Source: an actinobacterium LLX17
GTDB lineage: Bacteria; Actinomycetota; Actinomycetes; Propionibacteriales; Nocardioidaceae
Assembly (NCBI GenBank): GCA_000471045.1
Contig: KI301992.1
Coordinates: 132,900 to 196,899, forward strand
Direction of reading: 5' to 3'
Length of the DNA stretch: 64,000 nucleotides
Shown here: positions 4,604 to 62,350 of the stretch, in pieces
Layout: each line of letters starts with the position of its first letter
Numbering within the stretch: position 1 is the stretch's first letter
Notes under the pieces: model-generated
Database searches by the model: none
What the model was told of the DNA's origin: nothing
Seen by the model: the letters and a program-made list of their open reading frames with translations, nothing else
Translations under genes and position numbers: made by a program

Positions 4604-4612
4604 GCCCGTCCA

Positions 4613-4675
4613 CGCTGAGTGTCACGTTTCGGTCGTGAAATCGCCGATTCAACGGCCAGAACGTGACACTCAGCG
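4613..4675. repeat. 63-bp palindromic repeat, family A copy 1
   Basis: Perfect 16-bp outer arms (CGCTGAGTGTCACGTT at 4613-4628 and its reverse complement at 4660-4675) enclose an imperfectly paired interior, so the whole 63 bp can fold as one long hairpin. It sits between the LysE-type gene and the proC promoter and may terminate the upstream transcript. A second 63-bp copy lies at 58530-58592 between nuoF and nuoG. Confidence 0.85.
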
Positions 4676-4682
4676 CGGCCTC

Positions 4683-4688
4683 TAGGCT
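4683..4688 (+). promoter_or_regulatory. -10 element TAGGCT of proC
   Basis: TAGGCT ends 6 nt before the ATG at 4695. It lies directly downstream of repeat A copy 1, whose right arm would cover the -35 region. Confidence 0.55.
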
Positions 4689-4694
4689 GGCGGC

Positions 4695-5495
4695 ATGAGC
4701 ACAGTCGCGATCCTCGGTGCCGGCGTGATGGGCGAGACCCTGCTCGCCGCGATCCTCCGCGCCGGTCAGGACCCGTCCACCGTCCGCATCAGCGAGAAGC
4801 GGGCCGTGCGCGCCGACGAGCTGCGGGCGAGGTACGGCGTCGAGGTGGCTGACGCGATCACCGCCGTGCGTGAAGCCGACGTCGTGCTGGTGGTGGTCAA
4901 GCCGCAGGACGTGCCGAGCCTGTTGGCCGAGGTGGGCAGCGAGATCGCCCCGACCGCGGTCGTGGTGTCGCTGGCGGCGGGCGTCCGCACCGCGACGTTC
5001 GAGGCGGTGCTGCCGCCGGGCACGGCCGTGGTGCGGGCGATGCCGAACACCCCGGCGATCGTCGGTGCCGGCATGTTCGGGGTCTCCCCGGGCGCGAGCT
5101 GCGACGACGAGCGCCTCCAGCAGGTCGTCCAGCTCCTGCGGGCCGGGGGAGAGGTCGTCGTGGTCGACGAGTCGCACCAGGACGCCCTCACCGCCGTCTC
5201 CGGCTCCGGTCCGGCCTACGTCTTCTACCTGGCCGAGCAGATGATCGCCGGCGGCATCGAGGCCGGACTCGATCCCGACGTCGCTCGTACCCTCGCGGTG
5301 CAGACGCTGGTGGGCTCTGCGCGGCTGCTAGCGGAGTCCGACGACGACGCCGCCGAGCTGCGGCGGCGCGTCACCTCGCCGAACGGCACCACGGCCGCCG
5401 CGATCGAGACCTTCGACGCGGCCGGCGTCGATGCCGGTCTGCGCTCCGGCGTCCTGGCCGCCGCTCGTCGCTCGGCGGAACTCTCCGCCGACTGA
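4695..5495 (+). CDS. proC: Pyrroline-5-carboxylate reductase
   Basis: This enzyme catalyses the last step of proline synthesis, NAD(P)H reduction of 1-pyrroline-5-carboxylate. The 266-residue protein opens with the Rossmann motif AILGAGVMGETLLAAIL, has VVKPQDV and AMPNTPAIVGAG in the middle, and carries the family signature VSGSGPAYVFYLAEQMI with the following GGIEAGL helix. Length is normal. It is monocistronic by promoter evidence and precedes acuC, as in the mycobacterial proC neighbourhood. Confidence 0.95.
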   Translation: MSTVAILGAGVMGETLLAAILRAGQDPSTVRISEKRAVRADELRARYGVEVADAITAVREADVVLVVVKPQDVPSLLAEVGSEIAPTAVVVSLAAGVRTATFEAVLPPGTAVVRAMPNTPAIVGAGMFGVSPGASCDDERLQQVVQLLRAGGEVVVVDESHQDALTAVSGSGPAYVFYLAEQMIAGGIEAGLDPDVARTLAVQTLVGSARLLAESDDDAAELRRRVTSPNGTTAAAIETFDAAGVDAGLRSGVLAAARRSAELSAD

Positions 5496-9636: not shown

Positions 9637-10695
9637 TCACTTGCCGCCGAGCAGTCCGTTCAGGAGACCGGGCACGAGGCCCTCCTGCTCGCCGCCACCC
9701 AGCAGACCCTGGACGAGCGGCGTGACGACCGGGATGCCGGCGCTGGTCGGCGTGGGACTCGGGACGACCGGCAGGGCCGGGACGACCGGCGTGGCCGGGG
9801 GAGCAGCAGCGGTGGTGCCGCCGCCGCTGGTCGGGCGAGGAGCCGGAGCCGCCGACGGAAGCGTGGTGCCCTGCGGCACGGCGGGCTGACCGACGGTGGG
9901 GGTGACTGCCAGCTCGGGGGCGGCCGCGAACTCCACGAGCTCGGGGCTGCTGCACTCGGTGCAGAGCTGACGCGCCTGGTCGACGATCTGCCGGACGGTG
10001 TCGGCAGCACGGGTCAGCGGATCGCCGTCGCCGGCGGGCAGGGTGTCGGACAGCGACGCCAGGGTGTCGGAGGCCTCGACCGCGAAGGTGTTGACCTCCT
10101 CGACGGAGCCGGCGCCACCCTCTTCGTCGTAGTGCGCGAAGAGATCGGCGGAACCGGCCTCGGCCTGCTCGGCGAAGTCGTCCAGCGACTCGGCGGCCAG
10201 CACGGGCTCGTCGGCCTCGGCGAGAGCCTCGGCCTCGGCCAGGCGCTCACGGGCCTGGGAGAGCTGGAACTCGCCGCGCGCCTCGGGGGAGCGGTGGAGG
10301 GCGAGCTCGACGCTCTCGACGCCGCGCTTGACCGTGTAGAGCATGTCGCCGGGCAGGGCCTGGGCGCTGGAGGCGACCAGACCGACGCCACCGACGGCGA
10401 CGATCGCTGCGGCACTGAGGCGGGCGGCGCGGCGACGGATGCCGGCGCCGACGGGGGTGGCGGGCTGGGCGGACGCGACACGGGCAGCGGGCCGGCTGGC
10501 GGGCTCGAGCACGGTGGCCGCCTCGACCAAGAGGCGTTCGCGGAGCGCGAGACGGAAGTCCTGCGGGGGGCTGACCTCGGCCGCCGCGGCGCACAGGCTC
10601 TCGGCCACCCGGACGAGCTCGCGCACGTCAGCGTCACCACGACGGCCCCGCAGGGCGGCGTCGAAGCTCTCTGCCGTGTTCTTGCGCGACATCAT
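9637..10695 (-). CDS. DUF5667 protein, putative membrane anti-sigma partner
   Basis: The 352-residue protein has a cytoplasmic N-terminal region (residues 1-110) with helical segments such as VRELVRVAESLCAAAAEV, one membrane segment (SAAAIVAVGGVGLVASSAQA), then the DUF5667 hallmark ALPGDMLYTVKRGVESVELA and an Ala/Glu-rich external helix region, ending in a Pro/Thr/Ala-rich tail. It lies directly downstream of an ECF sigma gene on the same strand. That context and topology suggest an anti-sigma role comparable to RsbN of Streptomyces; this is inference. The last 80 or so residues look like a cell-wall-spanning spacer. Confidence 0.7.
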   Translation of the reverse strand: MMSRKNTAESFDAALRGRRGDADVRELVRVAESLCAAAAEVSPPQDFRLALRERLLVEAATVLEPASRPAARVASAQPATPVGAGIRRRAARLSAAAIVAVGGVGLVASSAQALPGDMLYTVKRGVESVELALHRSPEARGEFQLSQARERLAEAEALAEADEPVLAAESLDDFAEQAEAGSADLFAHYDEEGGAGSVEEVNTFAVEASDTLASLSDTLPAGDGDPLTRAADTVRQIVDQARQLCTECSSPELVEFAAAPELAVTPTVGQPAVPQGTTLPSAAPAPRPTSGGGTTAAAPPATPVVPALPVVPSPTPTSAGIPVVTPLVQGLLGGGEQEGLVPGLLNGLLGGK

Positions 10696-10775
10696 CGGTC
10701 CTGCTTCCGTCGGGATACCTCGAGTGGATCTTCCACTCGTCCAACGATGAGGAGACGGTCGAAGTTACGAGTCAT
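10692..10775 (-). CDS. Possible 27-residue leader ORF between sigma and DUF5667 genes
   Basis: An ATG at 10775 opens a 27-codon frame (MTRNFDRLLIVGRVEDPLEV and seven more mostly charged residues) whose TGA overlaps the DUF5667 ATG at 10695. A hairpin (10721-10739) lies inside it. The exact stop-start overlap is the only support; it could be chance. Confidence 0.25.
   Translation of the reverse strand: MTRNFDRLLIVGRVEDPLEVSRRKQDR
10721..10739 (-). other. Inverted repeat in the leader of the DUF5667 gene
   Basis: CGAGTGGA and TCCACTCG form a perfect 8-bp stem with a 3-nt loop, about 25 nt upstream of the DUF5667 ATG. It could be an attenuating hairpin or a regulator site. Confidence 0.4.
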
Positions 10776-10798
10776 GACGCGAGTTGCCCGAATCCTGA

Positions 10799-11494
10799 TC
10801 ATCGGACGTCCTCGGAGATGTTCTTCGCGAGGCTCCGGACGGCCCGCAGCTGCAGCTGCTTGATGGCGCCCTCGCTCCGGCCGAGGGCGGCAGCGGTCTG
10901 CGCGATCGAGAGTCCCTGGATGAAGCGCATCAGCACACAGTCGCGCTGCTCGGTGGGCAGCTGGTTGACCGCGGTGAAGAGCATCTCGTTGGAGACGAGG
11001 CTCAGCACCTCCTCCTCCGGGCTGGGCGCGGTGCGTGGCGACTCGGGGACGCTGTCGGAGACGATCTCGAGGCGGGCGCGACTCGACTTGTAGTGGTCGG
11101 TGACGAGGTTGCGCGCGATGGTGGTGAGCCACGCGCCGAAGTCCTTGCCCTGCCAGCTGAATCGCGAGATGGCGCGGAGACCGCGGACGAACGTCTCGCT
11201 GGTGATGTCCTCGGCCAGCTGGGCCGAGCCGACGCGGTAGTAGACGAAGCGGTAGATGCCGGTGACGTAGTGGTCGTAGAGCTGGCCGAAGGCCTCGGCG
11301 TCACCGTCGACCGCCAGCTCGACGAGGGCGCGGAGGCGGTCGGCCTCAGGATCGGGCGTGGGATCGGGACTGTGGGAACCGCGCGTCGAGGAGGGGCTGC
11401 GGTCGACGTGGGCCAGGGCAGCGAGCAGCGAGCCGTCGTCCGGCTGCATGCCGGCCAGGGCCACGGCCTGCCGAAGTCTCCCGAACTCAACCAC
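10799..11494 (-). CDS. ECF (sigma-70 family) RNA polymerase sigma factor, BldN-like context
   Basis: The GTG at 11494 is chosen because GGGAGGG precedes it by a few bases, giving 231 residues. Region 2 reads FGQLYDHYVTGIYRFVYYRV and LAEDITSETFVRGLRAISRF with WLTTIARNLVTDHYK; region 4 reads QLPTEQRDCVLMRFIQGLSI and AAALGRSEGAIKQLQLRAVR. The N-terminal extension of about 55 residues is unusual for a minimal ECF factor. In Streptomyces the developmental sigma BldN and its anti-sigma RsbN are encoded near rex-hemA, and this gene has the same neighbourhood, so a BldN-type factor is likely. Confidence 0.85.
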   Translation of the reverse strand: MVEFGRLRQAVALAGMQPDDGSLLAALAHVDRSPSSTRGSHSPDPTPDPEADRLRALVELAVDGDAEAFGQLYDHYVTGIYRFVYYRVGSAQLAEDITSETFVRGLRAISRFSWQGKDFGAWLTTIARNLVTDHYKSSRARLEIVSDSVPESPRTAPSPEEEVLSLVSNEMLFTAVNQLPTEQRDCVLMRFIQGLSIAQTAAALGRSEGAIKQLQLRAVRSLAKNISEDVR

Positions 11495-53563: not shown

Positions 53564-54117
53564 TGGGACTCGAGGAGAAGCTGCCCAGCGGCGTCCTGCT
53601 CTCGACCGTCGAGGGGCTCGCCGGCTACATGCGCAAGGCCTCGTTCTGGCCCGCGACGTTCGGCCTGGCCTGCTGCGCCATCGAGATGATGACGTTCGGC
53701 GCGCCCCGGTTCGACTCCTCCCGCTTCGGCATGGAGGTGTTCCGCCCCAGCCCGCGCCAGGCCGACCTGATGATCGTCGCCGGCCGCGTGAGCAACAAGA
53801 TGGCACCGGTCCTGCGGCAGATCTACGACCAGATGGCCGAGCCCAAGTACGTGCTCGCGATGGGCGTCTGCGCCAGCTCCGGCGGGATGTTCAACAACTA
53901 CGCGATCGTGCAGGGCGTCGACCACGTCGTGCCGGTCGACATGTACCTGCCCGGCTGCCCGCCGCGCCCCGAGATGCTGATCGACGCGGTGCTCAAGCTG
54001 CACGACAAGATCCAGCACACCAAGCTCGGCGTGAACCGTGAGAACGAGATCATCGAGCAGGAGACCGCCGCCCTCCAGGCCGTGCCCACCTCGGCGATGA
54101 AGGGCCTGCTGCGGTGA
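53563..54117 (+). CDS. nuoB: NADH-quinone oxidoreductase subunit B
   Basis: NuoB carries the terminal N2 [4Fe-4S] cluster that reduces quinone. The 184-residue protein has the tandem Cys in [19 protein letters not shown], a third Cys in [15 protein letters not shown] and the fourth in [21 protein letters not shown] 53563 is chosen from the overlap with nuoA. nuoC follows with a GTGA overlap. Confidence 0.96.
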
Positions 54118-54863
54118 GCGCGGACGACAAGGAGGACCAGCAGCCGAGCGCGGGCCACGTCGACGAGGACACCCCTGAGGGGTCCGACGTGACCGACGTC
54201 GTGCCGTCCGACGCACAGACGCTCGAGGTCGTCGGGGTCCGCGAGGGTGCCTTCGGCGTGGCCGGCACCGGCGACACCAGCGGCTTCGGCGGGCTGACGA
54301 AGCCGATCCTCATGCCGCCGGCCAGCGTCCCGCCGTTCGGGGGCTGGTTCGACGAGGTCGCCGAGGGTCTGGTGCGCGGCGTCGGGGGCGAGGCGATCGA
54401 GAAGGTCGTCGTCGACCGCGGCGAGATCACCTTCCACGTCCGACGCGAGCGCCTGGTCGAGGTCGTGCAGCACCTGCGCGACGACCCCGCCCTGCGCTTC
54501 GAGCTCTGCTCCTCGCTGTCGGGTGTCCACTACCCGGCCGACGCGGGCCGCGAGCTGCACGTCGTGCTGCACCTGCTGTCGATGACGCACCGCCGCCGCA
54601 TCCGCGTCGAGGCCTCGGCCCCGGAGGGCGACCCCCACGTGCCCAGCGTCGTGTCCGTCTACCCGACCGCCGACTGGCACGAGCGCGAGACCTGGGACAT
54701 GTTCGGCATCGTCTTCGACGGCCACCCTGCCTTGACGCGCATCCTCATGCCGGACGACTGGCCCGGCCACCCGCAGCGCAAGGACTACCCGTTGGGCGGC
54801 ATCCCGGTCGAGTACAAGGGCGCCACGATCCCGCCGCCGGACGAGCGCAGGAGGTACTCATGA
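54114..54863 (+). CDS. nuoC: NADH-quinone oxidoreductase subunit C
   Basis: The 249-residue subunit has an acidic 30-residue start ([20 protein letters not shown]) not found in short homologs, followed by the conserved core ending [40 protein letters not shown]. The start is the GTG overlapping the nuoB stop. Its own stop overlaps the ATG of the first mini-ORF at 54860. Confidence 0.93.
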
Positions 54864-54943
54864 GCGAGCTTGCGAGCGAACATTCAGGCCGTGTCATGAC
54901 GGCACCGCCTACCCTCACGTCCTTCAAGGCGGTGACGTCATGA
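54860..54943 (+). CDS. 27-codon mini-ORF filling the nuoC/nuoD junction
   Basis: ATG 54860 overlaps the nuoC TGA, and the mini-ORF's own TGA (54941-54943) overlaps the nuoD ATG (54940). The product would be [20 protein letters not shown] plus seven residues (SFKAVTS). The 5' part GAGCGAGCTTGCGAGCG is an imperfect palindrome of a type repeated at actinobacterial gene starts. Both ends share the sequence TCATGAGCG, consistent with a duplicated junction. No known function. Confidence 0.5.
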
Positions 54944-56274
54944 GCGCCACCACGGATCCCTACGCGGGCACCACGGAGTCGACGTCGGGGCCGGTCTTCA
55001 CCGTCACTGGTCAGGACTGGGACACGATCAACGCGGGTGCCGCCGACGGCGACCACATCGTCGTCAACATGGGCCCGCAGCACCCCTCGACGCACGGCGT
55101 GCTGCGCCTGATCCTCGAGATCGACGGCGAGCAGGTCGTCGACGCCCGCGCGGGCATCGGCTACCTGCACACCGGCATCGAGAAGAACATGGAGTACCGC
55201 ACCTGGACGCAGGGCGTCACGTTCTGCACCCGCATGGACTACGTGGCTCCATTCTCGAACGAGGCGGCCTACGTCGGCGCCGTCGAGCGGCTGCTGCAGA
55301 TCGAGGACTCCATCCCGCAGCGTGCCCTCGACATCCGGGTGCTGATGCTGGAGCTCAACCGCATCAGCTCGCACCTGGTCTGCATCGCCACCGGCGGCAT
55401 GGAGATCGGCGCGCTGACGGTCATGACGTGCGGCTTCCGCGACCGCGAGCTGATCCTCGACCTGTTCGAGGCGATCAGCGGCCTGCGCATGAACCACGCC
55501 TACTTCCGGCCCGGCGGCGTGGCGCAGGACCTGCCCGACGACGCCATCGGCCAGCTGCGCGACACCGTGGCGCTGCTGCGCAAGCGCCTGCCCGAGTACG
55601 CGGCCCTGTGCAACGCCAACCCGATCTTCAAGGGACGCCTCAAGGAGGTCGGACACCTCGACCTCGCCGGCTGCCTCGCCCTGGGCATCACCGGGCCGGC
55701 GGTCCGTGCCACCGGCTACGACTGGGACCTGCGCCGCACCCAGCCCTACTGGGGCTACGACACCTACGACTTCGACGTCGTCACGTGGGACGAGCCCGAC
55801 GCGTACGGCCGCTTCCGCGTGCGCCTCGACGAGATGACCGAGAGCCTCCGCATCGTCGACCAGGCCATCGACCGCCTCGAGGCGAGCGTCGGTGAGCCGA
55901 TCATGATCGCCGACCGCAAGATCGCCTGGCCGTCGCAGCTCAGCGTCGGCGCCGACGGGCAGGGCAACTCCGCACAGCACATCAAGCACATCATGGGCGA
56001 GTCGATGGAGGCCCTGATCCACCACTTCAAGCTGGTCACCGAGGGCTTCCGCGTCCCGCCCGGCCAGGCCTACTTCGCGGTCGAGTCGCCCCGCGGCGAG
56101 ATCGGCTGCCACGCGGTCTCGGACGGTGGCACCCGCCCGTACCGCGTGCACTTCCGCGACCCGTCGTTCGTCAACCTGCAGGGCACCTCGGTCATGAGCG
56201 AGGGCGGCATGATCTCCGACGTCATCGTCGCGATCGCCAGCATCGATCCCGTCATGGGGGGTGTCGATCGATGA
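54940..56274 (+). CDS. nuoD: NADH-quinone oxidoreductase subunit D
   Basis: NuoD forms the quinone pocket with NuoB. The 444-residue protein has a short extra N-terminus, then [20 protein letters not shown] with the quinone-site His, [20 protein letters not shown], and the C-terminal [20 protein letters not shown]. An upstream GGCGGTGACG inside the mini-ORF acts as ribosome site. The TGA overlaps an ATG that opens the next mini-ORF. Confidence 0.96.
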
Positions 56275-56402
56275 GCCTCACTCGCTGCGCTCCCTCGGCC
56301 CACCGATCGCCGCGCGACTCCGTCGCGCCCGCGCTCCGCGCGGACCCCTGCCCTCGCTTCGCTCGGGCCATGGTCACGTCGATGGGGGGAGGAGCCCAAT
56401 GA
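56271..56402 (+). CDS. 43-codon mini-ORF filling the nuoD/nuoE junction
   Basis: ATG 56271 overlaps the nuoD TGA, and the TGA at 56400-56402 overlaps the nuoE ATG at 56399. The 43 residues ([20 protein letters not shown] and onward) are Arg/Pro/Ala-rich because the DNA is a chain of palindromes such as CGCTGCGCTCCCTCGGCC and CCTCGCTTCGCTCGGGCC, related to 27595-27622. A second frame is also open without stop, from GTG 56261 into nuoE, and would add 46 residues to NuoE. GGGGGAGGAG before 56399 favours initiation at nuoE itself. Confidence 0.45.
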
Positions 56403-57196
56403 CGCTTCCTGATACGACCCTCGACGAGCAGACCATCGGTGAGCTGCGGGAGCTGATGGGGCGCTACCCGCAGGCGCGTTCGGCGCTGCTGCCGATGCTG
56501 CACCTCGTGCAGTCGGTGCAGGGCCACGTGACGGCCGAGGGCATCCAGACCTGCGCCGAGCTGCTGGGCCTCAGCGCTGCCGAGGTCTCCGGCGTCGCCA
56601 CGTTCTACACGATGTACAAGCGCCGGCCGATGGGCACGCACCACGTGGGCGTCTGCACCAACACGCTGTGCGCCGTCATGGGTGGCGACGTCATCCTCGA
56701 GCGGCTCAAGGACCACCTCGGCGTGGGCAACGACGAGACCACCGACGACGGCCAGGTGACGCTCGAGCACATCGAGTGCAACGCCGCGTGCGACTTCGCG
56801 CCGGTGCTGACGGTCAACTGGGAGTTCATGGACCAGCAGACCCCCGAGTCGGCCGTCGAGCTGGTCGACCGGCTGCGCGCCGGCGAGGAGGTCCGCAGCA
56901 CGCGCGGCGCCACCATCACCTCGTGGCGCGAGGCCGAGCGCGTGCTGGCCGGGTTCGAGGACGGTCGCGCCGACGAGGGTCCCGCCGCGGCTGGCCCGTC
57001 GCTGGTGGGTCTGGAGATCGCGCACGAGCGCGGCTGGGCGGCCCCGGACTACCCGGAGCAGGCCGATCGCGACGGGTCCGACACGTCCAAGACCAAGCTG
57101 GGTGCCGACGAGCAGGCCGACACCTCGCGCGCCGAGTCCGAGACCGTGGCCGAGCAGTCCGGCGCCGATGTCGAGGGAGGCAAGTCCGATGAGTGA
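56399..57196 (+). CDS. nuoE: NADH-quinone oxidoreductase subunit E
   Basis: NuoE carries the N1a [2Fe-2S] cluster of the NADH module. The 265-residue protein (ATG 56399, after GGGGGAGGAG) has the ligands in GVCTNTLCAVMGGD and HIECNAACDFAPVLTV. The last 70 residues, after the normal end, are an acidic Asp/Glu/Ser-rich extension (GADEQADTSRAESETVAEQS). The 3' end overlaps nuoF by 8 nt. Confidence 0.94.
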   Translation: MTLPDTTLDEQTIGELRELMGRYPQARSALLPMLHLVQSVQGHVTAEGIQTCAELLGLSAAEVSGVATFYTMYKRRPMGTHHVGVCTNTLCAVMGGDVILERLKDHLGVGNDETTDDGQVTLEHIECNAACDFAPVLTVNWEFMDQQTPESAVELVDRLRAGEEVRSTRGATITSWREAERVLAGFEDGRADEGPAAAGPSLVGLEIAHERGWAAPDYPEQADRDGSDTSKTKLGADEQADTSRAESETVAEQSGADVEGGKSDE

Positions 57197-58514
57197 TGTC
57201 CTGACGCCGGTGCTGAGCGCCAACTGGGCCGACGACCGCGCCTGGACGCTGCCCGTCTACGCCGAGCGCGGCGGGTACGAGGCGCTGCGCACGGCCATGG
57301 CGATGGAGCCGGCCGACCTCATCACCCTGGTCAAGGACTCCGGCCTGCGCGGTCGCGGCGGCGCCGGGTTCCCCACGGGCATGAAGTGGAGCTTCATCCC
57401 CACCGACAACCCCAACCCCACCTACCTGGTGGTCAACGCCGACGAGTCCGAGCCGGGCACCTGCAAGGACATCCCGCTCATGATGGCCAATCCGCACGTG
57501 CTGGTGGAGGGCGTCATCATCGCCGCCCGCGCGATCCAGGCGCAGCGGGCGTTCATCTACGTGCGCGGCGAGGTGCTGCACGTCGTGCGCCGCCTGCGCG
57601 CCGCCGTGCGCGAGGCCTACGAGGCCGGCTACCTGGGGCCGAACATCCTGGGGTCCGGCATGAACCTCGACCTCGTGGTGCACGCCGGTGCCGGTGCCTA
57701 CATCTGCGGCGAGGAGACGGCGCTGCTCGACTCGCTCGAGGGTCGTCGCGGCCAGCCCCGCCTGCGGCCGCCGTTCCCCGCCGTCGCCGGACTGTACGCG
57801 AGCCCCACGGTCATCAACAACGTCGAGTCCATCGCCTCGGTGCCGGCCATCGTGCGCGGTGGGATCGACTGGTTCGGCTCGATGGGCACCGAGAAGAGCA
57901 AGGGCTTCACGCTCTACTCGCTGTCGGGCCACGTGAAGCGTCCCGGTCAGTACGAGGCGCCGCTCGGCATCACGTTGCGTCAGCTGCTCGACCTCGGCGG
58001 CGGTCTGCGCGCCAATCCTGACGGCTCCAGCTCGGAGCTGAAGTTCTGGACGCCCGGCGGATCGTCCACCCCGCTGTTGACGGCCGAGCACCTCGACGTG
58101 CCGCTCGACTACGAAGGCGTCGGCGCCGCCGGCTCGATGCTGGGCACCAAGGCGCTGCAGGTCTTCGACCAGACCACGTCGGTCGTGCGCTGCGTGCTGA
58201 GGTGGACCGAGTTCTACAAGCACGAGTCCTGCGGCAAGTGCACACCGTGCCGCGAGGGCACGTGGTGGCTCGTGCAGGTGCTGCGTCGCCTCGACGAGGG
58301 CCAGGGCCGCGAAGGCGACATCGAGCTGCTGCTCGACCTGTGCGACAACATCCTGGGCCGCTCGTTCTGCGCGCTCGGCGACGGCGCCACCAGCCCCATC
58401 ACGTCGGCCATCCAGTACTTCCGCGACGAGTTCGAGGCCGGCATGCACACCCCGTCGCGCGAGCTCTTCCCGCCGGCGGCCTCCACCCTCTTCCCCCAGG
58501 AGGTGACGGCATGA
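57189..58514 (+). CDS. nuoF: NADH-quinone oxidoreductase subunit F
   Basis: NuoF binds NADH, FMN and the N3 [4Fe-4S] cluster. The 441-residue protein has GLRGRGGAGFPTGMKWSFIP (NADH/FMN glycine-rich loop), NADESEPGTCKDIPLMM, CGEETALLDSLEGRRGQPRL and cluster ligands in HESCGKCTPCREGTWW and FCALGDGATSP. ATG 57189 has GGAGGCAAG upstream. The TGA overlaps the mini-ORF ATG at 58511. Confidence 0.96.
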   Translation: MSDVLTPVLSANWADDRAWTLPVYAERGGYEALRTAMAMEPADLITLVKDSGLRGRGGAGFPTGMKWSFIPTDNPNPTYLVVNADESEPGTCKDIPLMMANPHVLVEGVIIAARAIQAQRAFIYVRGEVLHVVRRLRAAVREAYEAGYLGPNILGSGMNLDLVVHAGAGAYICGEETALLDSLEGRRGQPRLRPPFPAVAGLYASPTVINNVESIASVPAIVRGGIDWFGSMGTEKSKGFTLYSLSGHVKRPGQYEAPLGITLRQLLDLGGGLRANPDGSSSELKFWTPGGSSTPLLTAEHLDVPLDYEGVGAAGSMLGTKALQVFDQTTSVVRCVLRWTEFYKHESCGKCTPCREGTWWLVQVLRRLDEGQGREGDIELLLDLCDNILGRSFCALGDGATSPITSAIQYFRDEFEAGMHTPSRELFPPAASTLFPQEVTA

Positions 58515-58528
58515 CGGTCATCCAGTCC
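58499..58528 (+). repeat. 30-bp direct repeat, left copy (old nuoF/nuoG junction)
   Basis: 58499-58528 matches 58594-58623 at 28 of 30 positions, including GGAGGTGACGGCATGACGGT. It contains the nuoF stop and a false nuoG start. It flanks repeat A copy 2, like a duplication made on insertion. Confidence 0.9.
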
Positions 58529-58609
58529 CCGCTGACTGTCACGATTCGGTCGCGTTTCGGGCCATTTCGCGACCAGAACGTGACACTCAGCGTGGAGGTG
58601 ACGGCATGA
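58511..58609 (+). CDS. 32-codon mini-ORF filling the nuoF/nuoG junction
   Basis: ATG 58511 overlaps the nuoF TGA, and the TGA at 58607-58609 overlaps the nuoG ATG at 58606. The product begins MTVIQSPLTVTIRSRFGPF and ends [10 protein letters not shown], being the translation of repeat A copy 2 and its flanks. Its ribosome site and start are the duplicated nuoG ones, so it is likely to be initiated. Confidence 0.5.
   Translation: MTVIQSPLTVTIRSRFGPFRDQNVTLSVEVTA
58530..58592. repeat. 63-bp palindromic repeat, family A copy 2
   Basis: The element has the same length and the same right arm as copy 1 at 4613-4675 (AACGTGACACTCAGCG), with a left arm differing at two of 16 positions. It is inserted between nuoF and nuoG, flanked by the 30-bp direct repeat. 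Confidence 0.88.
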
Positions 58610-58623
58610 CGGTCGACCAGTCC
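58594..58623 (+). repeat. 30-bp direct repeat, right copy (functional nuoG start)
   Basis: This copy contains GGAGGTGACG and the ATG actually used by nuoG. It differs from the left copy (58499-58528) only at two adjacent bases. Confidence 0.9.
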
Positions 58624-61032
58624 GGACACGACGTCCACGAGGCAGAGCTGCCGGTCGAGATGGTGACGCTGACCATCGACGACGTCAGCGTCAGCGTCCC
58701 CAAGGGCACGCTCCTGATCCGTGCCGCCGAGCTGATCGGCGTCGAGATCCCGCGCTTCTGCGACCACCCGCTGCTGGAGCCCGTCGGCGCCTGCCGCCAG
58801 TGCCTGGTGGAGGTGCCCGATGCCGGCAACGGGCGCGGGTTCCCCAAGCCGCAGGCCTCGTGCACGCTCGAGGTCGCCGAGGGCATGGTGGCCCGCACGC
58901 ACCTCACGTCCGAGGTCGCCACCAAGGCCCAGGTCGGCACCATGGAGTTCCTGCTGATCAACCACCCGCTCGACTGCCCGGTCTGCGACAAGGGCGGCGA
59001 GTGCCCGCTGCAGAACCAGGCCATGTCGCACGGGCGCGGTGAGTCCCGGTTCACCGAGACCAAGCGCACCTTCCCCAAGCCCGTCCCGGTCTCGGCGCAG
59101 GTGCTGCTCGACCGCGAGCGCTGCGTGCTGTGCGCCCGCTGCACCCGCTTCTCCGAGCAGATCGCCGGTGACCCGTTCATCGCGCTGGTCGAGCGCGGTG
59201 CCGAGCAGCAGGTCGGCATCGGTCCGAACATCGACGGTGGCGACGAGCCCTTCCACTCTTACTTCTCGGGCAACACGATCCAGATCTGCCCGGTCGGCGC
59301 CCTGACCAGCGCCGACTACCGCTTCCGCTCGCGCCCGTTCGACCTCGTCTCGACGCCGGCCGTCGCCGAGCACGACTCCTGCGGTGCGGCCATCCGTGTC
59401 GACCACCGCCGCGGCCGCGTCATGCGGCGCCTCGCCGGTGACGACCCCGAGGTCAACGAGGAGTGGATCACCGACAAGGACCGGTTCGCGTTCACGTGGT
59501 CCGGTGGCGACGACCGCGTCCGCACGCCACTGGTGCGCAACGCCGAGACCGGAGAGCTCGAGCCGGCCTCGTGGCCGGCCGCACTCGCCACGGCCGCCCG
59601 GCTGCTGCAGCAGGTCCACGGCTCCGCGGGTGTGCTGCCCGGTGGCCGCCTCACGCTCGAGGACGCCTACGCGTGGTCGAAGTTCGCCCGCCTCGCGCTC
59701 GGCACCAACGACGTCGACTTTCGCAGCCGCGCCGTCGGCGCGGGGGAGGCCGACGCGCTCGCCGCAGCCGTCGCCGGCGTGCCGGCCAGCGTCACCTACC
59801 GCGACCTCGAGCGCGCCCGGCACGTCGTGCTGGTGGGCCTGGAGCCCGAGGACGAGGCCGGCACGCTCTTCCTGCGCCTGCGCAAGGCCGTGCGGGAGCA
59901 CGGCACCAAGGTCATCACGGTGGCCAGCCACCGCAGCCGCGGCACCACCAAGCTGCAGGCCCGCCTCGTGCAGGTCGTGCCCGGCAACGAGGCCGTCGCG
60001 CTGGCCGACCTCGAGCTGGGGCCGGACGACGTGCTGCTCGCCGGTGAGCGGCTCGGCCTCGTGCCGGGCGGGCTCGCCGCGGCCGTCGAGGCCACGGGTC
60101 GGTCGGGCGCCCGGTTCGCCTGGGTCCCGCGTCGCGCCGGCGACCGCGGCGCGGTGGAGGCTGGACTGCTGCCCAACCTGCTGCCTGCCGGACGACCCGT
60201 CGTCGATGCCGAGGCTCGAGCCGATCTCGCCGCCGCGTGGGACGTCAACGCGGTGCCGGGCACCGTGGGTCGCGACACCGCCGCCATCATCGCCGGCGTC
60301 GCCGACCGCACCCTGCGTGGACTGCTCGTCGGTGGCGTCGAGATCGCCGACCTGCCCGACCCCGCGCTGGCGCGCGCCGCCCTCGCGGCCGCCGACGTGG
60401 TGGTCAGCCTCGAGGTCCGCCACAGCGAGGTCACCGCAGTCGCCGACATCGTGCTGCCGATCGCTCCCATGGTCGAGAAGCCCGGCACGTTCGTCACCTG
60501 GGACGGTCGCCGCCGCTCGTTCGACGCCGTGCTCGACGAGCCCAACTCCGTCACCGACACCCGCGTGCTGGCCGGCATCGCCGAGGAGCTCGGGCGTCCC
60601 CTGGGGTTCCGCACCATCGCCGGCGCCCGCGACGACCTCGCCTCGCTCGGCGGCTGGGACGGCACGCGGGCCGACCTGCCGGCGGTTCGCCGCGAGCCGG
60701 TCGTCCCCGCGGCCGGACAGCTCGTGCTCTCCACCTGGCGCCAGCTGATCGACGACGCACGCGGCCAGGACGGGCAGCCCGAGTACAGCGCCACCGCCCG
60801 GCCGCCGGTCCTGCGAGCCAGTGCCGCCACGTGGGACGCGCACGGCGTGATTCCGGGCGAGGTCGCCACGCTGACCGCCCCCGGACGCGACCTGCGGGTC
60901 GCCCTCCCCACCGAGGTCGACGATCTCCCCGACGGTGTGATCTGGGCCCCCGGCAACAACGGCACCAACCTGCGCGAGCTGGGCCTCGGCCACGGCTCCG
61001 CCGTCCAGGTCACCTCTGGGGGTCTGGCATGA
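58606..61032 (+). CDS. nuoG: NADH-quinone oxidoreductase subunit G
   Basis: The 808-residue subunit has the N-terminal ferredoxin part with [20 protein letters not shown], the HxxxC region [20 protein letters not shown] and [20 protein letters not shown], then the molybdopterin-oxidoreductase fold without cofactor ([39 protein letters not shown]). Length is normal for actinobacteria. The TGA overlaps the ATG of the next mini-ORF at 61029. Confidence 0.95.
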
Positions 61033-61100
61033 GAGAGCGTCGTTTCGTGGCTCGGGCGCTGGGCGCCCTCGCACCTCATCGAGCGGAGGGTGTCGCATGA
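61029..61100 (+). CDS. 23-codon mini-ORF filling the nuoG/nuoH junction
   Basis: ATG 61029 overlaps the nuoG TGA, and the TGA at 61098-61100 overlaps the nuoH ATG at 61097. The product ([23 protein letters not shown]) is the translation of a family C repeat unit (61041-61087). GCGGAGGGTG near its end is the nuoH ribosome site. Confidence 0.5.
61041..61087 (+). repeat. Family C repeat unit in the nuo operon
   Basis: These 47 bp match the minus-strand unit at 41328-41374 at 43 positions. The unit contains a GGGCGC...GCGCCC inverted core. Confidence 0.85.
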
Positions 61101-62350
61101 GCTCTGAGTACTTCGGGAACGAGGACTTCTGGGTCATCCTGCTGAAGGCCGTGCTGGTCTTCGTGGTGCTGGTGGTCTTCACGCTCTTCAACATCTGGTT
61201 CGAGCGTCGCGTCGTGGCCCGCATGCAGCACCGCGTCGGCCCCAACGTGCACGGCCCCTTCGGTCTCCTGCAGAGCCTCGCCGACGGCGTGAAGCTGGCG
61301 CTGAAGGAGGACATCGTCGTCACGGCGGCCAACAAGGGCATCTACGTGCTCGCGCCGATCCTCGCGACCATCCCGGCCTTCCTGGCCTGGGCGGTCATCC
61401 CGTTCGGGCCGGTCGTCACGATCCCGTTCACCGACACCCAGACCCCGCTGCAGCTCACCGACCTGCCCGTGGCGGTGCTCTACATCCTGGCCGTCACGTC
61501 GATCGGCGTGTACGGCATCGTGCTCGCGGGTTGGTCGTCCGGCTCCACCTACGCCCTGCTCGGCGGCCTGCGCTCCAGCGCCCAGGTCATCAGCTACGAG
61601 GTGGCGATGGGCCTGAGCTTCGTCACCGTCTTCCTCTACGCCGGCACGATGTCGACCAGCGAGATCGTCGCCGCGCAGGAGGACATGTGGTACTTCCTGC
61701 CGCTGCTGCCGTCGTTCCTCATCTACCTGATCGCGATGGTCGGCGAGACCAACCGTGCGCCCTTCGACCTCCCCGAGGCCGAGGGTGAGCTGGTCGGCGG
61801 GTTTCACACCGAGTACAGCTCGCTGAAGTTCGCGCTGTTCTTCCTGGCCGAGTACATCAACATGGTCACCGTCTCGGCGCTGGCCACGACGCTGTTCCTG
61901 GGCGGCTGGCGCGCCCCGTTCGGCATCGCCCAGGTCTGGGAGGGCGCCAACGAGGGCTACGTGCCGGTCATCTGGTTCCTCGGCAAGACGCTGTTCTTCA
62001 TCTTCCTGTTCGTCTGGCTGCGCGGCACGCTGCCCCGCATGCGCTACGACCAGTTCATGGCGCTGGGCTGGAAGGTGCTCATCCCGATCTCGCTGGTGTG
62101 GATCGTGGCGGTCACCTTCATCCGCAAGCTGCAGAACGAGGACATGCTCGACCGCGACGCCGTCATCTGGATCGCGGCCATCGCCGCCGTCGTGCTGCTG
62201 ATCAGCCTGTTCATCCCGGAGAAGAAGCCCGCTCCGGAGGAGGAGGTCGAGGCGGCTGAGCCCGACGCCTTCGCCGGTGGCTACCCCGTCCCGCCCATGC
62301 CCGACACGCCGCCCCGCAGCAGCACCCCGACCAAGGAGGGCAAGCGATGA
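61097..62350 (+). CDS. nuoH: NADH-quinone oxidoreductase subunit H
   Basis: NuoH links the quinone site to the proton channels. The 417-residue protein has eight membrane helices, [20 protein letters not shown], the conserved loop [20 protein letters not shown] followed by HTEYSS, and [20 protein letters not shown]. The C-terminal tail ([12 protein letters not shown]) is acidic and then Pro-rich. The ATG overlaps the preceding mini-ORF stop. Confidence 0.96.

Follow-up and report, generated by a model that had tools for sequence, protein, structure and literature searches.

Among the repeats so far described in bacteria, the mycobacterial interspersed repetitive units (MIRUs) appear, by analogy, to be the closest known kind to the inserts treated here, short repeat-derived sequences that join the nuo genes of the actinobacterium LLX17. 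Supply et al. are said to have found, in 1997, a DTGA-like target at both ends of MIRUs. The passages on MIRUs in a 2025 review describe short, dispersed and in places tandem units that insert at start codons and whose open reading frame (ORF) is coupled at −4 (PMC12548453), and part of another paper names units of 77 and 53 bp (PMC4213456), both lengths being 2 mod 3. On translational coupling, sections of two further papers report that gaps of about 20–38 nt nearly abolish re-initiation in Haloferax and Escherichia coli (PMC10666635), and that translation upstream is able to open a masking structure (PMC6728339).

The window, the whole stretch of DNA that was analysed, comprises 64,000 nt of contig KI301992.1 from LLX17, whose 3.0-Mb genome has its nearest relatives in Aeromicrobium. 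It contains a nuo operon (first base, 53204) in which four gene junctions are filled by very short ORFs, here called mini-ORFs. We consider it probable (about 0.8) that repeats in phase with their neighbours are retained at such junctions by selection for ribosome hand-over, with translated mini-ORFs acting as relays between genes. The features that carry this reading stand in the DNA itself: overlaps at both ends, an open frame, a phase rule that many separate inserts obey and uncoupled junctions do not, and a peptide that is not conserved. We infer that ribosomes translate the mini-ORFs, as published work on coupling suggests, and that selection acts against losing the relay.

The nuo operon and its junction inserts

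All four mini-ORFs given in a preliminary description of this DNA are present, and they alternate with the nuo genes as follows.

54114..54863, plus strand, nuoC
54860..54943, plus strand, nuoC/D mini-ORF of 27 codons, belonging to family A, which is dispersed in Aeromicrobium (here a unit of 80 nt plus DTGA)
54940..56274, plus strand, nuoD
56271..56402, plus strand, nuoD/E mini-ORF of 43 codons, in an insert resembling repetitive extragenic palindromes (REP-like); the nuoE frame is open too, from GTG 56261
56399..57196, plus strand, nuoE
57189..58514, plus strand, nuoF
58511..58609, plus strand, nuoF/G mini-ORF of 32 codons, in a dispersed palindromic repeat
58606..61032, plus strand, nuoG
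61029..61100, plus strand, nuoG/H mini-ORF of 23 codons, in a dispersed intergenic repeat
61097..62350, plus strand, nuoH

In each case, the ATGA that starts the mini-ORF contains the TGA of the upstream gene, and the ATGA that ends it contains the ATG of the downstream gene. Measured from ATG to ATG, the inserts are 80 (C/D), 128 (D/E), 95 (F/G) and 68 nt (G/H) long. Each length is 2 mod 3, as it has to be for a frame to start in one ATGA and stop in the next; it is not the insert that is a multiple of three, as first described, but only the ORF including its stop codon. The one-in-three chance of restored phase that had been assigned to each insert holds for the four by phase alone, (1/3)^4, and the comparative counts below are much stronger. 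The geometry of the remaining junctions agrees with the direct overlap already reported for them (A/B, −1; B/C, −4 with GTGA; E/F, −8; H/I, I/J and J/K, −4).

The same junctions overlap directly in close relatives (C/D in L082, L084 and L085; D/E in L085; F/G in L082, L083 and L085; G/H in L082 and L084), and the four inserts of the window are therefore insertions. Their proposed origin from repeats is borne out. C/D belongs, as a divergent copy, to a dispersed family with 80/83-nt units, and the other three have partial copies elsewhere in 864 kb of this genome (E ≤ 0.05; F/G 8, G/H 5, D/E 3), where shuffled queries gave mean matches of 0.12 (F/G), 0.46 (G/H) and 1.12 (D/E). With three copies against a shuffled background of 1.12, D/E is the weakest repeat case. 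As the D/E insert is also open in the nuoE frame, a NuoE with an N-terminal extension is possible at this junction. A ribosome site near the 3′ end of each insert had likewise been described; a clear Shine-Dalgarno sequence is found in the D/E, F/G and G/H inserts, and the one in C/D (GGCGGTG) is weak.

A 30-nt direct repeat (93% identity) stands on either side of the F/G insert, which contains a palindrome.

58499..58528, plus strand, first copy of the 30-nt direct repeat (Shine-Dalgarno plus ATGA context), 93% identical to the second
58594..58623, plus strand, second copy of the 30-nt direct repeat, at the nuoG start, 93% identical to the first
58526..58554, plus strand, left arm of the F/G palindrome (fold z −4.3)
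58568..58596, plus strand, right arm of the F/G palindrome

Copies of the F/G palindromic repeat are seen at two other places. In L133 (13883-13990, plus strand), one occupies a further ATGA junction with orientation and frame unchanged, and holds a 35-codon mini-ORF. The other, in the window at 4605-4698, follows a TAG stop and is unbridged.

Bridging at coupled junctions

The comparison covered 80 nuo loci (the best 80 of 588) and 45 further regions of the genus, with reading frames set by homology rather than by annotation. Junctions from B/C to J/K were counted as inserted rows where no direct start was present and the homology gap was at least 20 nt, after removal of artefact rows. A row was scored as bridged when start and stop each lay within −14 to +6, with three start codons allowed. 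This interval was chosen since the D/E insert of L095 closes with a 14-nt overlap; a single-ORF test with a narrower interval of −11 to +6 leaves several C/D inserts unbridged. Some genomes were sampled twice, and counts of distinct sequences and of clusters correct for the duplicates.

The preliminary description had named relatives with inserts of random length and phase as the finding that would speak against it. We examined many inserts of many lengths, and in the nuo operons of the Nocardioidaceae all 92 usable inserted rows are bridged (92/92), as are 76/76 distinct sequences and 42/42 clusters. By a rough estimate, chance would leave 60–80% of inserts unbridged. When a single ORF was read from the same start codon in the 42 cluster representatives, it closed in 41 of them in the real frame, and in 3/42 and 7/42 when the frame was shifted by one and two bases. 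Most of the 76 distinct inserts hold one mini-ORF (71), three hold two, and two hold three; five distinct C/D inserts that no single ORF bridges are chains of two or three coupled mini-ORFs (42+42, 44+44 or 43+36 codons; triples such as 44+44+57). The phase follows the geometry of the overlaps: gaps are 1 mod 3 with −4 at both ends, 2 mod 3 with −8 at both ends, and of the third class where −4 and −8 are mixed. Insert lengths are correspondingly 2 mod 3 at −4 overlaps and 1 mod 3 at E/F, a junction whose usual overlap is −8. A fixed element length does not explain this geometry-dependent phase together with the chains.

Nine rows were removed before this count: five of L076, where several nuo genes are truncated, and L064 H/I, L014 G/H, L116 G/H and L126 I/J. 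In L076, three rows (G/H, H/I and J/K) are bridged and two (C/D and E/F) are not; L064 H/I is unbridged, and the other three are bridged. The upstream gene is truncated in all removed rows except L076 C/D. In L014 and L116 (nuoG) and L126 (nuoI), the gene appears split toward its C-terminus into two overlapping frames joined by ATGA, with a frameshift or sequencing error likely. A few apparent mini-ORFs (L014/L116 G/H, L126 I/J and several in L076) are frameshifted gene ends, as an origin of the pattern by chance, gene calling or assembly error would have it, but such an origin of the whole pattern is scarcely credible given that the counts come from raw DNA of many genomes, with frame controls at the level of both the family and the class.

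The rule extends beyond the family. From 186 NuoD-bearing genomes among 197 searched, 60 were picked across families of the class, 59 of them outside the Nocardioidaceae, and 504 of their 534 nuo junctions are direct. Where the first possible start lay at least 25 nt away, 23 of 24 junctions are bridged (shifted frames, 2 and 4), and 3/6 are bridged among non-direct junctions with a first possible start nearer than 25 nt. The arg and his operons were taken from the window's genome and from 20 (arg) and 19 (his) congeners. At those of their junctions that mostly overlap in the genus, 17/20 inserted rows with a gap of at least 12 nt, not clustered, are bridged. At uncoupled junctions bridging is nearly absent (hisH/A, 0/17; hisA/F, 1/11).

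Several results weigh against retention by selection for hand-over. All three arg/his exceptions fall at argJ/argB, where three of the four inserted rows are unbridged; in the window's genome, the element at this junction is coupled to argB, sitting at that gene's own ATG 17 nt past the argJ stop. Bridging was scored by a permissive test, and strict overlaps of −4, −1 or −8 at the first start and the last stop occur in only 64/76 distinct inserts. L076 C/D is unbridged behind an untruncated gene and carries the Nocardioides repeat; it may be a genuine exception, which would make the count 92/93. A further 54 rows were set aside for an in-frame start close to the upstream stop, and 18 of these 54 are bridged; the window's own D/E insert, which is bridged, stands among them and outside the nuo count, because of the GTG in the nuoE frame near the nuoD stop. 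The looser junction nuoA/B is bridged in 12/18 clusters, so that the contrast between coupled and uncoupled junctions is partial there. Finally, of 201 ordinary co-directional gaps of 21–300 nt found in 864 kb of the window's genome, 17 are bridged (shifted frames, 3 and 8). Since these gaps, like hisH/A and hisA/F, are mostly unbridged, the rule belongs to coupled junctions. The earlier proposal that inserts are tolerated only when coupling is kept is accordingly supported by the family (92/92) and class-wide (23/24) rows as a rule for such junctions, not for all gaps.

Bridging as a general property of this genome's gaps was considered and rejected on the same 17/201. One further bridging mini-ORF, of 36 codons with −4 at both ends, lies outside nuo in the window (10692-10802, minus strand), between co-directional genes.

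Kinds of insert and the family A hairpin

A hidden Markov model of family A built without the C/D insert recovered that insert at full length (E 4e-8). The family, with units of 80/83 nt, has 16 matches in this genome and occurs in 44 of 49 genus genomes (own included), with up to 77 per genome; beyond the genus it is rare, with E ≤ 1e-7 in 4/41 Nocardioidaceae genomes, 3 of these being of the genus, own included. DTGA is present at both ends in 14 of the 16 own matches, and all 14 close on the second DTGA. At this second DTGA, a coding-like ORF begins in 11 copies, the next tandem unit in two, and nothing coding-like in one (L268); at the first, a coding-like ORF ends in 9/14. Tandem units are found in hisD/C of L265 (two) and between two genes at G000:C1:2352254-2352497 (three; L272/L275/L280), where they form a chain of three coupled mini-ORFs resembling a MIRU-type variable number tandem repeat (MIRU-VNTR). 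At L282 (G000:C1:1066207-1066262), a predicted gene (MSERQRAMEQ..) takes its in-frame start from the 5′ part of family A, as though the element had turned into a protein N-terminus.

The nuo inserts at large are of several unrelated kinds, among them a Nocardioides type with the ends CACCCCAC and GGGGACCCCG. Copies of the window's F/G, G/H and D/E repeats are found elsewhere in its genome, some of them at convergent or divergent sites, where phase is not needed. An insert with these ends (CACCCCAC..GGGGACCCCG) is also found at argC/J of L244 (1918-1977), in a genome of the window's genus, which suggests that the Nocardioides type crosses genera.

The phase could be built into such elements rather than selected afterwards: a MIRU-like element of fixed length, 2 mod 3, that duplicates DTGA on insertion would always land in phase. 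The unit lengths agree with this, since 147 of 150 listed family A copies are 80 or 83 nt long (94 and 53 copies; the other 3 are 79 or 82 nt), the 150 being the best-scoring part of a longer list and including own copies and copies used to build the model. The 20 bridged nuo copies of the Nocardioides type point the same way; they share a single orientation, and the length is 2 mod 3 in 19 of them, the remaining one having −8 geometry. So does the flank duplication of most inserts elsewhere, which is often little beyond DTGA. However, unrelated inserts are in phase as well, including a palindromic repeat type (137–218 nt) that is bridged in both orientations (5 inverted and 4 direct pairwise matches) and duplications of the nuoC 3′ end, likewise bridged. 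The phase, moreover, shifts with the overlap geometry, and in family A subtypes, as read from the alignment, compensating small indels restore the frame. We regard built-in phase as a doubtful account of the pattern.

The frame of the mini-ORFs is kept and their peptide is not conserved. In nine own family A copies of equal length, divergence is 0.46/0.43/0.41 at codon positions 1/2/3, and amino-acid identity is 0.405 in the real frame against 0.395 and 0.427 in the shifted ones, the comparison being ungapped and blurred by the compensating indels. The preliminary suggestion that the inserts may yield tiny peptides finds no support as regards a function, the codon positions diverging about equally. 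Functional micropeptides would account for frames that are open and start at stop-start overlaps with the old initiation site retained, but the flat divergence, the lack of extra likeness in the real frame and the service of the same junctions by unrelated sequences make them very improbable.

The 3′ half of family A forms a predicted stem of up to 17 bp, whose 3′ arm holds the downstream Shine-Dalgarno region and AUGA.

54894..54910, plus strand, 5′ arm of the C/D hairpin (fold; family covariation)
54927..54943, plus strand, 3′ arm of the C/D hairpin, containing the Shine-Dalgarno region and start (AUGA) of nuoD together with the stop of the mini-ORF (fold; family covariation)

The fold z-score is −2.65 for C/D and −3.15 for the own argJ/B copy. 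Across 29 family A copies, 90.5% of the cells of the 17-bp hairpin are paired. Both sides have changed in 12 of the 17 pairs, a number reached by 1 of 500 shuffles, and in none of 500 were the other four measures reached, among them pairing, doubly changed cells and the covariation score. The signal is lost when the partner is slid by 1 to 3 columns. The cells include 39 G-U against 5 A-C, which points to a fold of the mRNA strand and not merely to a palindrome in the DNA. In seven of eight nuo copies of family A, the chance that the downstream start is unpaired lies below the mean for shuffled interiors, and in six it lies below at least 95% of shuffles; the exception is L109 B/C. The hairpin likely hides the downstream Shine-Dalgarno sequence and AUG, and would be opened mainly by the ribosome that translates the mini-ORF.

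A further point on the contrary side of the balance is that start hiding is no common property of the inserts: the 69 examined have a median rank of 0.475, and in the window the D/E and G/H inserts are predicted to fold no better than shuffles. Start hiding by all inserts was accordingly rejected, with family A the only regular case among those tested. In the Nocardioides type (alignment A3, 18 copies), a covarying stem is present, with 5/11 pairs changed on both sides, and the downstream start is mostly left accessible. Rfam 15 gave no match at gathering score anywhere in the window.

Structure in the RNA also bears on a different form of selection, in which ribosomes are needed to cover the transcript, preventing Rho-dependent polarity and terminator-like hairpins, and coupled initiation is not what is selected. 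The inserts are high in GC, the F/G palindrome is predicted to fold at −50.5 kcal/mol (z −4.3), and polarity by Rho on untranslated RNA is presented as established in the relevant part of the 2025 review (PMC12548453). Cover, however, needs no stop-start overlap at both ends, yet −4, −1 or −8 stands at both ends in 64/76 inserts, and most ordinary gaps of 21–300 nt are without a bridge. Both-end overlaps may in turn follow partly from target duplication on insertion. On balance, we think RNA cover an unlikely replacement for hand-over as the object of selection.

A proposed ribosome relay and its known counterparts

Selection for hand-over would operate as follows. Short repeats, and in some relatives small duplications, would enter the ancestral stop-start overlaps of a translationally coupled operon, and would persist only where the ribosome still passes from gene to gene. 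The upstream ribosome would stop at the first DTGA and re-initiate on the mini-ORF, whose translation would run through the insert and open any structure in it; the ribosome would then stop at the second DTGA and re-initiate on the next gene. In the C/D family, it would be mainly the ribosome that translated the mini-ORF that opens the hidden downstream start.

A wider proposal, which we hold to be somewhat better than an even bet, is that actinobacterial operons have been colonised by relay modules, non-autonomous repeats that bring a start codon, an open frame, a Shine-Dalgarno sequence and a stop-start overlap. In Aeromicrobium they would also bring a covarying hairpin, keeping the next gene locked as long as the module is untranslated, and any insert at a coupled junction, of whatever origin, would have to become a relay, single or in a chain of two or three. 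If this is true, such operons hold a record of many natural tests by which ribosome hand-over between respiratory and biosynthetic subunits is shown to be needed in vivo. The in vivo importance of stop-start overlaps, as opposed to their being a by-product of compact genomes, has been argued largely from reporters and from statistics of gene distance. Here, evolution has made many insertions into the overlaps, and the relay is intact in nearly all testable survivors, even where it takes a chain of three mini-ORFs. The question becomes testable in one operon, with a natural set of coupling parts at hand, and a route is suggested by which short repeats could spread within operons with little harm.

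Our literature search, of open papers, returned no report of such repeats in Aeromicrobium or Nocardioides among the matches listed. So far as it shows, the novelty lies in the groups of hosts concerned, in a rule shared by unrelated inserts and by chains, in the contrast that uncoupled junctions present, and in a hairpin that covaries.

Family A appears to behave like a MIRU in the features tested, the likeness being one of description rather than of sequence comparison. It is short (80/83 nt, against a range of about 40–100 bp), is dispersed in many copies, forms tandem units or chains at some sites, and has DTGA at both ends in 14/16 own matches, a feature that MIRUs reportedly share. As in the published account of MIRUs, so far as its passages on them go, it lies at start codons with an ORF coupled at −4, and all 14 own DTGA-flanked copies close on the second DTGA. 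It differs in having a covarying hairpin over the downstream start and in its surroundings, the hosts here being Aeromicrobium and Nocardioides, where the rule holds equally for several unrelated families and for plain duplications.

Two other described systems resemble these inserts in part. The palindromic elements of Rickettsia, as portrayed in the pertinent section of PMC10969869, are likewise palindromic repeats kept in a reading frame, but they lie within genes and are fused to the protein, whereas the mini-ORFs here are separate and stand between genes. Leader genes, thought to raise translation by reinitiation and showing a distance peak in Actinobacteria (PMC4833913), share the principle of a short ORF near a gene start that feeds ribosomes to it; they precede a gene, whereas the present mini-ORFs bridge two genes inside an operon. 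The proposed mechanism resembles known translational coupling by termination-reinitiation and the opening of masking structures, with its ATGA/TGATG overlaps and strong distance dependence, as set out in parts of PMC6728339 and PMC10666635, and the counted nuo junctions have the geometry of coupled pairs, a stop-start overlap or a gap of a few nucleotides. In the coupling treated there both partners are ordinary genes, whereas here an inserted repeat between the genes would itself be the coupling unit.

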